NCBI GenBank assembly: GCA_041530395.1 | Contig: CP136945.1 | Location: forward strand, 1,860,001 to 1,924,000 | Source: Thermosynechococcaceae cyanobacterium Okahandja | GTDB taxonomy: Bacteria > Cyanobacteriota > Cyanobacteriia > Thermosynechococcales > Thermosynechococcaceae | Length of the DNA stretch: 64,000 bases | Direction: 5' to 3' | Shown here: positions 28,300 to 47,405 of the stretch, in pieces | Layout of the letters: every line of letters begins with the position of its first letter | How positions within the stretch are numbered: position 1 is the stretch's first letter | Notes under the pieces: model-generated | What the model was told of the DNA's origin: nothing | The model's database searches: none | Seen by the model: the letters and a program-made list of their open reading frames with translations, nothing else | Made by a program: the position numbers and the translations under genes

Positions 28300-28875
28300 A
28301 TGCCCCTATTAGAATTACGTCCCTTAGCCATTGAGGATTTAGATGGCATTGTCCAACTGGATCAGGTCTGCTTAGGCGGCTTTTGGTCGCGCCAGAGCTA
28401 TGCCCAAGAATTGGTGAAGCCCCACCATACGCTGCTAGTGCTGGCCACGCTGGAGCAGATCTGGGGATGTGGCCTCACGTGGGGGATTGGCGATGAGCTA
28501 CACCTAGTCCTGCTGATGGTGCATCCCCACTGCCGCCGTCAGGGCTTGGCGGGGTTACTGCTGTGCCGTCTGCTGCAATTGGCACACCAGCGGGGCGATC
28601 GCCAGTGGGCCACCCTTGAAGTCCGCCCGAGCAATACCGCCGCCCTGCGCTTATATCAACAGTTTGAATTCACCGTCGTGGGTCGTCGTCCCCATTACTA
28701 CGACCACCCGCGGGAAGATGCCCTCATTCTGTGGCGCAACCACCTCAACACCGCCGCAACCGGTGTCACTTTAGGGCACCAGTGGCACCAATGGCAGACC
28801 CGAGTGAGTCGCCATGGTTGGCAGGTGGTGACCCGCCCCGCCTCAGAAGGATGCTTGCAGGGCGAGGGTAGCTAA
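28300..28875 (+). CDS. rimI: Ribosomal protein S18-alanine N-acetyltransferase-like
   Basis: A 191-residue GNAT acetyltransferase. The acetyl-CoA loop is in LLMVHPHCRRQGLAGLLLCRL (Q/RxxGxA motif) and the RimI-type C-terminal block is LEVRPSNTAALRLYQQFEFTVVGRRPHYY. It would acetylate the N-terminus of ribosomal protein S18 using acetyl-CoA, though other protein N-termini are possible. The GNAT fold ends near residue 148; the last 43 residues are an extra tail without recognisable domain. The 3' end overlaps the convergent ABC transporter by 4 bases. Confidence 0.88.
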   Translation: MPLLELRPLAIEDLDGIVQLDQVCLGGFWSRQSYAQELVKPHHTLLVLATLEQIWGCGLTWGIGDELHLVLLMVHPHCRRQGLAGLLLCRLLQLAHQRGDRQWATLEVRPSNTAALRLYQQFEFTVVGRRPHYYDHPREDALILWRNHLNTAATGVTLGHQWHQWQTRVSRHGWQVVTRPASEGCLQGEGS

Positions 28876-30689
28876 AGCGCGGCACGTCCAGCCGTATCCT
28901 CAGTGATCTCCGATAATGCTTGGAGGCGGTAGAGGTTAGCATAGACCCCATTGCGCTCAAGCAGTTCTGTGTGGGTACCCTGCTCGACCAATTTGCCCCG
29001 CTTCAGCACAAAAATGCGATCCACGTGGCGGATCGTGGCAAGGCGGTGGGCAATAATAATCGCGGTGCGATTCACAAGGAGGCGGTTTAGGGCGGCTTGA
29101 ATCATGACTTCGGTTCCCACATCTAGGTTGGCGGTCGCCTCATCCAAGACCAGAATTTGGGGATTGCGAATTGCCACCCGCGCAAAGGCCAACAGTTGGC
29201 GCTGTCCGGCAGATAGGTTGGTGCCGCGCTGCCGCAGCAGGGTATCGTAACCCGCGGGCAGTTGCTCAATAAATTCGGCAATATTCATTTCGGCGGCCAC
29301 TCGCTGAATCTGATCGAGGGGGTAGGCATCCCCAAGGGCAATGTTGCTTTTCACATCGCCAGAAAAGAGAAAACTATCCTGCAAAATCACACCAATGTGC
29401 TGTCGCAGTTCTGCTTGGCTAAACTCACGGACATTGCGCCCATCAATGAGCACCTCACCGCGACTGGGTTCGTACAGACGGCACAGTAGGCGAATAATTG
29501 AGCTTTTACCCGCACCCGTAGGGCCAACAATGGCCACCTTCTCGCCCGCCGCAATCTGAAAAGACACCCCCCGCAGCACGTAATCCTCCTCTTTATAGGC
29601 CAACCAGACATTGCGAAATTCGACGGCGTACGGGTTATCGTGGCGAACAGGAGTGCGTACCCGGTCGGGGTCTTGGATTTCAATTGGCTCTGATAGCAGG
29701 TCATTAATCCGTTCAATGGCCGTTAACCCCGCCTGTACGATGGTAAATTTTTCCGCTAACTGGCGCAGCGGATCAAAGACTCGCTGGGAAAAAAGAATAA
29801 ACGTGGCCAAGGTGCCAAAGTCTATGGTGCGCTGCTCTACGAGGGCACCCCCAAGCCACAGGACACCGGCGATCGCCACAAAGGCAATCCACTCTAGGGT
29901 TGCCGAGACGGCTGAATCATAAAAAATGGTGCGATCCACTTCCCGAATGTAACGTTGGTTGCGCCGCCGGAATAGATTGCTATTAAACGCCTCCCGCCGA
30001 AACAACTGCACCACCCCAATACCCGTAATATTCTCTTGCAGGTTGGCATTCAGGAGCGACAACTCCTCACGGGACTTGTAGTTCGCCAGCCGATAGCGGT
30101 TCTGAAAGTAGATAATGAGCGCCGTAATCGGCAGCACCAGCGCCAACAGCAGCGTCGCCAAGGTGTGGTCAATCAAGAACATCGTCAGGATAACCACCAC
30201 CATGGAAAACACATCGCTAATCACCCCCACGGCTCCGGTGGCGAACACATCCCCAAGGGCATCCACATCACTCGTCAAACGGGTAATCAGCTTTCCCACA
30301 GGGGTGCGATCAAAAAAGCGGGAGGATAAGCGCAGGACGTGATCAAACAAATCGTGGCGAATATCGGCGGTAATCTGCTGGCCAATTTTTTGAATCCAGT
30401 AGCCCTGAGCCGCCTGCAGGGTAAACCGCAGGATCACGGTGACCAGCAATGCCATGCTCAGCAGATCAATGCCTTGGGTTAAGGACAAGGGCTTGAGAAA
30501 GGCGTAGGTGCTCTCCTCCTGTTTGAGGAAGGCGATCGCTTGGCCAATGATAATGGGTTGCAGGGCAGCCGCCGCCGCCAAGGGAACCAACAGTAACCCA
30601 CTCCCCAAAAGTGCCCAGCGGTAAGGCCGCAGGTAGGGGATCAAGCGCTGTAGCAATTGCCAGTCAGTGGCGCGGGCTGCAGATGTCAT
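28872..30689 (-). CDS. ABC exporter half-transporter (MsbA/BmrA type)
   Basis: A 605-residue fused permease-ATPase. Six transmembrane helices occupy residues 20-330 (LLGSGLLLVPLAAAAALQPIIIG, ISDVFSMVVVILTMFLIDHTLATLLLALVLPITAL). The ATPase has Walker A GPTGAGKSSIIRLL (about 389), signature LSAGQ (about 495), Walker B ILVLDEATANLD and the switch His in IIIAHRLATIRH. It likely acts as a homodimer exporting a lipid or drug-like substrate; the substrate cannot be read. It precedes by about 120 bases, on the opposite strand, the promoter described at 30772. Confidence 0.92.
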   Translation of the reverse strand: MTSAARATDWQLLQRLIPYLRPYRWALLGSGLLLVPLAAAAALQPIIIGQAIAFLKQEESTYAFLKPLSLTQGIDLLSMALLVTVILRFTLQAAQGYWIQKIGQQITADIRHDLFDHVLRLSSRFFDRTPVGKLITRLTSDVDALGDVFATGAVGVISDVFSMVVVILTMFLIDHTLATLLLALVLPITALIIYFQNRYRLANYKSREELSLLNANLQENITGIGVVQLFRREAFNSNLFRRRNQRYIREVDRTIFYDSAVSATLEWIAFVAIAGVLWLGGALVEQRTIDFGTLATFILFSQRVFDPLRQLAEKFTIVQAGLTAIERINDLLSEPIEIQDPDRVRTPVRHDNPYAVEFRNVWLAYKEEDYVLRGVSFQIAAGEKVAIVGPTGAGKSSIIRLLCRLYEPSRGEVLIDGRNVREFSQAELRQHIGVILQDSFLFSGDVKSNIALGDAYPLDQIQRVAAEMNIAEFIEQLPAGYDTLLRQRGTNLSAGQRQLLAFARVAIRNPQILVLDEATANLDVGTEVMIQAALNRLLVNRTAIIIAHRLATIRHVDRIFVLKRGKLVEQGTHTELLERNGVYANLYRLQALSEITEDTAGRAAL

Positions 30690-30771
30690 GCTGTCTCGCA
30701 GGGGGTAGTCTCCTATACCAGTCTAGGGCGAGGTCAGTAATAGTTTGTAACAGTTTTTCGGCGCAACAGGG

Positions 30772-30800
30772 TTGTCATCCGCCGTTGGCTTAGCTATAGT
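30772..30800 (+). promoter_or_regulatory. Sigma-70 type promoter for an unannotated transcript
   Basis: TTGTCA (30772-30777), a 17-base spacer, then TATAGT (30795-30800), pointing along the plus strand into a gap where both neighbours are on the minus strand. The 14-mer TATAGTAAAGGTAG (30795-30808) recurs, in the other orientation, as the -10 region of the small gene at 47.3 kb (47392-47405). Confidence 0.6.
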
Positions 30801-30806
30801 AAAGGT

Positions 30807-30975
30807 AGTTCGGGCTATCAATCCCCCGCATAGCCCCACTAAAATCCCCGAAAAGGTAAGTTACTCCGAAAGGGTAATGCTCAAATCAAAGATCCTGTAG
30901 CCGCCGCTTCAGAAAATGGTATGGATGTCTTTGATGCCGAAGGGATTTTTTCCAAATTTACCTAAAATATAGGGC
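30807..30975 (+). ncRNA. Candidate small RNA or small-peptide transcript
   Basis: Downstream of the promoter at 30772-30800 the presumed transcript begins near 30807. It starts with a perfect 7-bp hairpin (GGGCTAT 30812-30818 with ATAGCCC 30830-30836) exposing a CCCCC-containing 11-base loop. The rest contains no classical gene, but one frame stays open from about 30842 to TAA 30966, ending MDVFDAEGIFSKFT, without an acceptable start codon and ribosome site further up. A GGTAT/ATGCC stem followed by a T6 run lies near 30930-30958 as possible terminator. Whether this is an sRNA, a leader peptide or a decayed gene is open. Confidence 0.4.
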
Positions 30976-30979
30976 GTAC

Positions 30980-31594
30980 TTAGTGCGTGCTATCGCTAAT
31001 GCGGCGGAGTACACCATTTACAAAGCGGTGACTGCCTTCGTCGCTATAGCGTTTAGCCAGTTCAATGGCCTCATTAATGGCCACTTGTTTGGCCACATCG
31101 AGGTACGTCATTTCCGTAATGGCAATTTCAATGATGTGGCGATCGACTTGGGTCAGGCGCTCCACCTGCCAGTCCACCATTGAGGTCTCGAGCCGCTGCT
31201 CAATGGCCGCCTGATGGCGGTGTAGGTGCTGCAAAATAGCCACGGCGTAGGTTTGCACCTCCTCTTGGTGGGCAAAATAGAGAATTTCGGGTAAATCTAG
31301 GGCGGCACCGACGCGATTAATGCAGCGTTCTGCCCGCTGGAGTGCTTCCCGCAGCAGCAATTGAACCTTCTCAAGCTGAGGGAGTTGTAACTCGCTCTCG
31401 TGCAGCAGCCGTTGCCCCTCACTTAGCTCACTCCCGGCCTGCTCTAGGGTATCGCGCACATCGCTGGCGAGGGTACGGACGGCCATTAAAATCAGGCTGC
31501 GACAGTCGGCATCACTGAGAGCCTTGGGTTGACGCAGGAGTTGGGCGGCACTCAGCAGCGCCAATTCACGGGCAACACGGCGAGCGGTGGTCAT
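30980..31594 (-). CDS. nusB: Transcription antitermination factor NusB
   Basis: A 204-residue NusB with an N-terminal addition of about 60 residues compared with the 140-residue E. coli protein. The all-helical RNA-binding fold is recognisable from [16 protein letters not shown] (residue 5 on) and the C-terminal blocks [31 protein letters not shown] and [11 protein letters not shown]. NusB joins S10 (NusE) on boxA RNA to antiterminate rRNA transcription. The start overlaps the end of the upstream DUF502 gene (ATGA), so the two are translationally coupled; that pairing is common in cyanobacteria. Confidence 0.93.
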
Positions 31595-32286
31595 GGGGTG
31601 TTCCTCGGCAATGGCTTTAGGATGGGGGGAATGGCACCGGAGGTGACTGAGGGCAGTGGGGTGCCGGGAGTCACGATGCCGCCGGAGATGATCAGCTTAA
31701 AGGCATCCTCAATGGAGATGTTTAGGTCCTGTACCTCCCGCTCACTGGCAATGACGTACCAGCCGGTTGTGGGGTTGGGGGAGGAGGGCACAAATAAACT
31801 GAGCATCGGCTCGGTAAACGTGGTTTGCAGTGAACCATTAATTGTACCCGTTACAAAGGCAACCGCCCACAGACCCGGGCGGGGATACTCAACGAGGACA
31901 ACGCGGCGAAAGCGATCGCGCGAGTCCCGCAGGATCGTCTCTAGGAGTTGTTGCAGGACGTTGTAGAGGGTACCCGCAAGGGGGATGCGCTTGAGCACAC
32001 GTTCACCGGTTTCTAAAAACCAGCGACCCACGATATTACGCGCCATCAGGCCAATGAGCAAAATGCCACTGAGGGGCACAAGAAGTCCCACGCTGATATT
32101 GAGTAGATCGACTAGGAGGGGATGCCATGTTTTGAAGGGGTTGACTTGTTTGGGAATGCGGGTCAGTAGGTCTAATACCCAGCTAGATACTGAAATGGAC
32201 AGCCAGATCGTGGTGGCAAGGGGAATGACCACAAGCAAACCGGCAATGAGGTCGTTTTTAATCGCTTGTTTGAGTCGATGGAGCAC
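31591..32286 (-). CDS. DUF502 membrane protein
   Basis: A 231-residue protein with two transmembrane helices (about 12-37, [20 protein letters not shown]; about 63-87, [20 protein letters not shown]) and a soluble C-terminal domain including [21 protein letters not shown] and [19 protein letters not shown]. This is the DUF502 family, of unknown function, related to plant LIKE-COV proteins. The gene overlaps nusB by four bases. The Pro-rich tail ([18 protein letters not shown]) is probably disordered. Confidence 0.88.
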
Positions 32287-47391: not shown

Positions 47392-47405
47392 CTACCTTTA
47401 CTATA
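47392..47405 (-). promoter_or_regulatory. -10 promoter region of the 47-aa gene
   Basis: Minus-strand TATAGTAAAGGTAG, whose first six bases are a good -10 box. The same 14-mer occurs at the promoter at 30795-30808. No clear -35 box. Confidence 0.55.

Follow-up and report, generated by a model that had tools for sequence, protein, structure and literature searches.

Locus and predicted transcript

The window, i.e. the complete stretch of 64,000 nucleotides that was analysed (contig CP136945.1 of Thermosynechococcaceae cyanobacterium Okahandja, positions 1,860,001 to 1,924,000), contains an intergenic region that is bounded by the genes for an ABC exporter and for NusB, both of which lie on the minus strand, as the first-pass annotation had it (Table 1). 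The same annotation had reported a promoter and a hairpin on the plus strand of this region, and both were recovered: the motif TTGTCA-N17-TATAGT is present at 30772-30800 and the 7-bp hairpin GGGCTAT/ATAGCCC with loop CAATCCCCCGC at 30812-30836. An RNA transcribed in this direction has the exporter gene as divergent and nusB as convergent neighbour, and the nusB stop lies about 30 nt beyond the presumed end of the RNA and its U-tract.

Table 1. Positions in the window of the predicted RNA, its parts and the flanking genes
Feature	Position	Strand	Remarks
ABC exporter gene, divergent neighbour	28872..30689	-	product name as in the first-pass annotation
Predicted -35 element TTGTCA	30772..30777	+	promoter scan; TTGTCA in 9 of 10 genus copies, TTGCCA in L002
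Predicted -10 element TATAGT	30795..30800	+	promoter scan
5' hairpin H1	30812..30836	+	stem 30812-30818/30830-30836, loop 30819-30829, C-run 30823-30827
Closing stem P1, 5' strand	30843..30848	+	pairs with 30942-30947
Diverged c-di-GMP-I (GEMM) aptamer	30845..30947	+	model R2, 78.4 bits, E 1.4e-18
G, equivalent of G20	30855	+	G in 99 of 99 copies
GAAA-tetraloop hairpin	30860..30878	+	tetraloop 30868-30871; both alignments
A, equivalent of A47	30883	+	A in 99 of 99 copies
Second arm	30885..30935	+	stem 30885-30892/30928-30935
Second arm, inner part	CC 30894-30895 / GG 30923-30924	+	resembles GAAA-tetraloop receptor
C, equivalent of C92	30937	+	C in 90 of 98 scorable copies
Closing stem P1, 3' strand	30942..30951	+	runs into U-tract TTTTTT 30946-30951
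nusB, convergent neighbour	30980..31594	-	PF01029, E 1.3e-26

The promoter-like site is the only one within 30000-32000, and shuffles of that stretch contain on average 1.0 such site, so that the site taken alone is not beyond chance; the exact motif is present a single time in the window and in none of 100 shuffles. Transcription would start near 30807. The fold of the RNA as a lone sequence is not unusually stable either (z = -1.23; 24 of 200 shuffles fold at least as well), and because promoter and fold are each weak by themselves, the significance of the element rests on its conservation. The first-pass annotation had also pointed to a 14-mer, TATAGTAAAGGTAG, that is shared between 30795-30808 (plus strand) and 47392-47405 (minus strand), where it precedes a small ORF. 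The repeat is indeed there; since the -10 region varies in relatives we give it no weight, and the sharing is probably a coincidence.

Identification of the aptamer

The stretch 30808-30951 appears as an RNA of two parts, namely a hairpin at the 5' end that carries a C-rich loop (H1), followed by a diverged c-di-GMP-I (GEMM) aptamer, an aspect that is absent from the first-pass annotation. The aptamer is not recognized by the curated models. A search of the element against Rfam yielded no family match in the window, either at the gathering score or at E-values up to 10, the whole window gave only RNase P at the gathering score, and the window copy fails the score of the covariance model of RF01051 (the c-di-GMP-I family). 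The corresponding loci of 11 relatives behave variably: five reach the RF01051 cut-off, L014 stays just below it, L012 matches the related GGC family below the cut-off of that family, and four give no match. When 291 genomes of the class were searched, RF01051 turned up at 45 places, distributed over 21 genomes; 17 of these genomes belong to the same family as the window genome, with scores within that family of up to 55.8 bits, and nothing was found in the 11 genomes of the genus.

To avoid circularity, a second covariance model (R2) was limited to sequences from outside the genus, namely 18 RF01051 hits that all lie above the cut-off. With R2 the window copy is the sole hit in the window at E-values up to 10, and the model recovers all ten copies of the genus plus L145, as well as 33 places in 32 canonical c-di-GMP-I loci (taken from a set of at least 119). 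As R2 thus matches the window, the genus and the canonical loci alike, it is close to certain from sequence that the element is a diverged c-di-GMP-I aptamer.

The anatomy agrees with this assignment. The window copy shares with the other copies the GAAA-tetraloop arm and a second arm with conserved pairing, and the CC/GG in the latter presumably corresponds to the GAAA-tetraloop receptor motif. Three positions in the window were mapped onto the numbering of the Vibrio Vc2 aptamer, in which we take G20, A47 and C92 to be the residues that contact the ligand. Of the 98 scorable copies, 90, including the one in the window, have all three equivalents intact; the C92 position holds C in 90 copies and U in eight (L102, L098, L116, L091, L096, L092, L146 and L142) and is missing in one truncated copy. 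The copies with U may differ in their ligand preference. Four of them (L091, L096, L102 and L146) adjoin homologous genes, the one tested being a W/Y-type tRNA synthetase. The window copy carries a U-U mismatch at a pair next to the ligand site, which was seen in 3 of 21 sequences.

Distribution of the RNA

At the DNA level, the region 30690-31000 matches 18 of 39 genomes including its own: nine of the ten other genomes of the genus, eight of twelve others of the family and none of the 16 from outside the family. After alignment, the conserved part corresponds to a plus-strand RNA of about 140 nt. A covariance model that includes the 5' hairpin (R1) extends the distribution considerably. Within the family it finds 71 places, 28 of 29 genomes being positive with 1 to 13 copies each; a second family contributes 30 places, spread over 30 of 38 genomes, and a third family one genome (G042). 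In a sample of the phylum (386 genomes), searched with stricter filters, nine genomes were positive, all of them within the first two families. All 45 RF01051 places fall among those found with R1, as compared by eye. The total amounts to 102 copies in three families, of which 99 (94 distinct sequences) were analysed; of the 71, a truncated copy (G021:C241) and two weak ones (E 2e-4 to 3e-4, in G014 and G011) were left out, and all 30 of the second family were retained. The copies are related to one another, with 24 of the 99 stemming from one genus. Given this spread, the element is, as far as comparison of genomes can establish it, a real and conserved RNA element, and an unannotated plus-strand RNA is probably present at the locus.

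The ten genomes of the genus that bear the RNA have one copy each. The remaining one, G007, also has no close homologue of the ABC exporter (best 37%), which makes a gap in the draft assembly and a loss indistinguishable. At the other extreme, the draft genome G017 has thirteen copies, two of which (L133:2853-2989 and L133:3172-3308) share a strand and start 319 nt from each other; a second genome has a same-strand pair with starts 521 nt apart (L118 was noted alongside L133). In L110, L123, L124 and L125 several tens of bases are inserted in the tetraloop arm, resulting in RNAs of 175-178 nt. No DNA match to the element was found in phages, and none in plasmids for two copies from other genera.

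Conservation of structure and the question of a peptide

Compensatory change in the stems clearly exceeds that in both shuffled and slid controls: in an alignment that was fitted to the structure, 27 of 31 pairs show two-sided changes and the covariation is 0.461 versus 0.227 after shuffling. The structure-free alignment made with MAFFT agrees, with 14 of 31 pairs and 0.311 versus 0.175, although the number of pair types, which is one of five measures taken on it, is unremarkable (85 of 500 shuffles reach it). In the structure-fitted alignment, two-sided changes occur in all six modelled pairs of both P1, in which 98.1% of the cells are paired, and H1. The latter is the least paired helix in both alignments (70.6% and 85.6% of the cells), in part owing to shifts of register, and its stem is highly variable in sequence, e.g. 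GGGCTAT/ATAGCCC versus AGACCCAT/GTGGGTCT.

These changes bear on the two readings that the first-pass annotation had offered, a small RNA or a short peptide gene. A frame does run open to a TAA, with stops upstream, as had been claimed, the TAA being located at 30963-30965 and not at 30966; it equally holds that there is no usable start, as the sole in-frame ATG (30921) leaves only 14 codons. Against an encoded peptide stand, apart from this, the double changes that preserve the stems and the length changes in relatives: a 1-nt insertion is present in L010 from the same genus, the second-arm loop varies in length in other genera, and the length changes, most of which fall in that loop, break the frame. 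Conservation in relatives, when checked, thus held for the hairpin and failed for the frame. We regard a peptide gene as barely credible. The small-RNA reading fares well, as the position of the promoter and the hairpin with its loop are conserved and pairs change in a compensatory manner.

The ends of the RNA

Close to where the RNA begins, each of the 99 copies carries a TANNNT hexamer that reaches a combined promoter score of at least 6, versus about 42 expected from shuffles, and a promoter-like pair with a score of at least 8 lies directly 5' of H1 in 67 of 99, versus about 13 from shuffles. As the promoter-like pair occurs just ahead of H1, this hairpin is probably the 5' end of the RNA. 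At the other side, 30946-30951 is the presumed 3' end. The T content 3' of P1 is 0.55, versus 0.28 in the background, and TTTT follows P1 in only 76% of the copies; a separate terminator beyond P1 was found in only 19 of the 96 loci with enough sequence, and a consensus scan of L151 found none downstream of P1.

Genomic context of the RNA

The window copy is not positioned like a cis riboswitch, because the next gene, nusB, lies on the opposite strand. Among the other nine copies of the genus, eight have a different, co-directional gene 152-184 nt downstream and L082 has other neighbours again. Counted locus by locus, 61 of the next ORFs are on the opposite strand and 31 on the same strand, and at seven loci the contig ends before an ORF is reached. 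To count independent cases, loci with homologous neighbours were taken together and groups of mixed orientation were scored by majority (the group of the window copy counting as same-strand): of the 44 resulting groups 23 are opposite, 18 are same-strand and three lie at contig edges, which for the 41 that can be scored comes close to an even split (binomial p = 0.53). By the same ORF rule, canonical c-di-GMP-I loci are same-strand in 86 cases and opposite in 21 (among the matches listed), and the difference in orientation with the RNA groups is pronounced (Fisher p = 3.6e-5, with the canonical loci ungrouped and among the matches listed). The control derives from a pattern scan of at least 119 stretches, which gave 121 matches, 14 of them near an end and set aside; a smaller control of 80 stretches yields 57 same and 16 opposite (p = 0.0004). 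The 21 opposite cases of 107 lie far above the published share, which implies that the ORF caller is noisy.

The neighbours themselves are diverse. Ten were tested against Pfam and comprise a tRNA synthetase, a PALP enzyme, PhoH, a sugar transferase, an EamA protein, NusB, a MoaA-like radical-SAM protein and an SMC-like ATPase, while two have no family; as far as the families tell they are unrelated to c-di-GMP. In one genus of the second family (L151-L153 and L155-L175) all 24 copies are convergent to the next ORF, the tested neighbour being MoaA-like, and in several of them a strong hairpin separates the RNA from that ORF.

Could the RNA nevertheless be an ordinary cis riboswitch whose co-directional target gene lies at some distance downstream, the orphan copies being relics? 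A co-directional next gene is found in the 18 same-strand groups and in 8 of the 10 copies of the genus, and P1 with the U-tract could serve as a ligand-dependent terminator. We nevertheless judge it quite improbable: apart from the orientation, which differs from that of canonical loci, the gaps to the co-directional genes range from 53 to 990 nt, versus a canonical median of 98 nt (among the matches listed), and the core features are also kept in copies that have no co-directional gene, the one in the window included.

The convergent arrangement, on the other hand, brings to mind the riboswitches that act through antisense RNA, in which the aptamer is likewise convergent to a neighbouring gene, as described in PMC9943018. 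When c-di-GMP is lacking, read-through past the U-tract would then repress the convergent gene, which in the window is nusB, with its end about 30 nt past that tract. The survey in PMC9943018 lists c-di-GMP as the family of riboswitches that tends most strongly to antisense placement (152 antisense versus 2,554 sense), and the preponderance of convergent next ORFs (61 of 92 loci, the group of 24 included) agrees with such a role. Yet the convergent gene changes with the lineage, an adjacent nusB homologue being found in the window genome only among the ten copies of the genus; the independent groups are near even, 18 of the 41 not being convergent; and in several loci of the 24-locus group the strong hairpin that separates the RNA from the convergent gene is preceded by an A-run, as would be expected of a terminator for the opposite strand. 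Antisense control therefore seems improbable to us.

The fact that the next gene is opposite in 23 of 41 groups, together with the unrelated flanks, makes it likely in our view that the RNA stands alone, rather than being a cis riboswitch. Furthermore, the combination of hairpin and aptamer recurs in related groups, which suggests an RNA that reads a signal and does not control an adjacent gene.

The C-rich hairpin

What all copies have in common in front of the aptamer is a run of cytosines. At least five C's are present in the hairpin region, and CCCCC lies within RNA positions 9-30, in 99 of 99 analysed copies, as compared to a CCCCC in 3 of 117 canonical c-di-GMP-I loci (among the matches listed), for which a longer stretch 5' of the aptamer was considered. 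A simple search finds a stem of at least five pairs around the longest C-run in 97 of 99 copies, and of the two exceptions L145 is artefactual, the search having been misled by a C-run in the 3' strand.

The exact complement of the loop, GCGGGGGATT, occurs 22 times in the genome itself, once as the RNA gene and 21 times elsewhere. Most of these sites are inside ORFs and just one (L341) is located about 30 nt before the start of an ORF, as given by a crude ORF caller; with only one site within 40 nt 5' of an ORF start, no target is picked out. In the 11 genomes of the genus the complement is about two- to fivefold more frequent than the reversed pattern, which composition may explain. Pairing between the loop and the 3' strand of P1 was considered as a general switching mechanism and rejected, since it amounts to at least 6 bp in 43 of 97 copies and to at most 3 bp in 31. 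P1 itself retains at least 6 bp in 77 of the 84 copies with a recognized 5' strand.

An alternative in which the hairpin is merely a protection of the 5' end is that of a reservoir: an abundant RNA that buffers free c-di-GMP. Such a role has already been proposed for merRNA of Bdellovibrio bacteriovorus in PMC3627812, and it suits an aptamer that stands alone without a consistent gene partner and that occurs in 1-13 copies per genome, two of the genomes having closely spaced same-strand pairs. A protective hairpin, however, needs no fixed loop, whereas the C-run is kept in every copy even though the stem sequence changes, and all ten genomes of the genus that contain the RNA make do with a single copy. 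We consider a reservoir rather unlikely.

Relation to known RNAs

The RNA shares with RF01051 the architecture of the aptamer, the GAAA-tetraloop arm and the equivalents of G20, A47 and C92, and homologues pass the gathering score; it differs in the divergence of the window copy, which puts this copy out of reach of the Rfam model, and in having a conserved C-rich 5' hairpin and no consistent gene under its control. The closest published description that we found, among the matches listed, is that of merRNA, for which PMC3627812 describes a c-di-GMP riboswitch within a non-coding RNA and no conserved downstream ORF. The same holds for the present element, the aptamer being located within a predicted non-coding RNA that has no conserved ORF downstream. 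According to that source merRNA measures 445 nt, is reported in Bdellovibrio only and was measured to be massively expressed. The present RNA, with its approximately 140 nt, its occurrence in three families and its C-rich hairpin, is thus set apart from merRNA as far as the description of the latter goes.

Among the matches listed for c-di-GMP riboswitches, merRNA and small RNAs of the genus, a literature in which subscription papers mostly fall outside the scope, no such cyanobacterial RNA was encountered. Yfr1 and Yfr2 are conserved cyanobacterial small RNAs encoded in intergenic regions. The present RNA resembles them, judged by their description in PMC2662882, in being small, conserved and intergenic, and differs by its aptamer body and by the absence of an Rfam family match for the window copy. 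The RNA elements that the cluster lists of that paper predict for Thermosynechococcus could include the present one. The c-di-GMP effectors named for cyanobacteria in the part of the literature at hand, for instance in the table of PMC10519070, are proteins, and riboswitches are mentioned there only in general terms.

Proposed mode of action and implications

The host is likely to make c-di-GMP, since its genome encodes 13 GGDEF domains and c-di-GMP signalling has been published for Thermosynechococcus, the genus named in the first-pass annotation (PMC5871770). Comparison of the copies reveals an element in which the position of the promoter is conserved, as is the 5' hairpin with its C-rich loop; the aptamer has retained its presumed ligand residues, P1 leads into U-rich sequence, and downstream no particular gene recurs consistently. 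The reading that we favour, with somewhat better than even confidence and on sequence evidence, is that of a stand-alone small RNA of about 140 nt that senses c-di-GMP and has the C-rich hairpin as its output. Binding of c-di-GMP by the aptamer would stabilize P1, and the stabilized P1 together with the U-tract would act as a terminator and so determine where the RNA ends and how stable it is. The further steps are put more cautiously: the C-rich hairpin might pair with G-rich stretches of target RNAs or bind a protein, and the amount or the fold of the RNA could in this way report the level of c-di-GMP in trans. Action in trans through the C-rich hairpin is our working hypothesis.

At a higher level, and tentatively, the copies might represent a family of ligand-gated small RNAs, in which the aptamer is built into one molecule with a C-rich hairpin and the latter acts on many RNAs in trans, so that c-di-GMP would be a direct post-transcriptional signal in the bacteria concerned; the copies would then have multiplied and be diverging, with up to 13 in a genome and some with a changed ligand residue. 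A free-standing c-di-GMP aptamer RNA that is found in three families, with one kind of hairpin in 99 of 99 copies, would add a branch that leads from the signal to RNA, a branch that in the genus would have been overlooked by Rfam. MerRNA would thereby gain a wider counterpart, and the role of such RNAs would become amenable to genetic tests.
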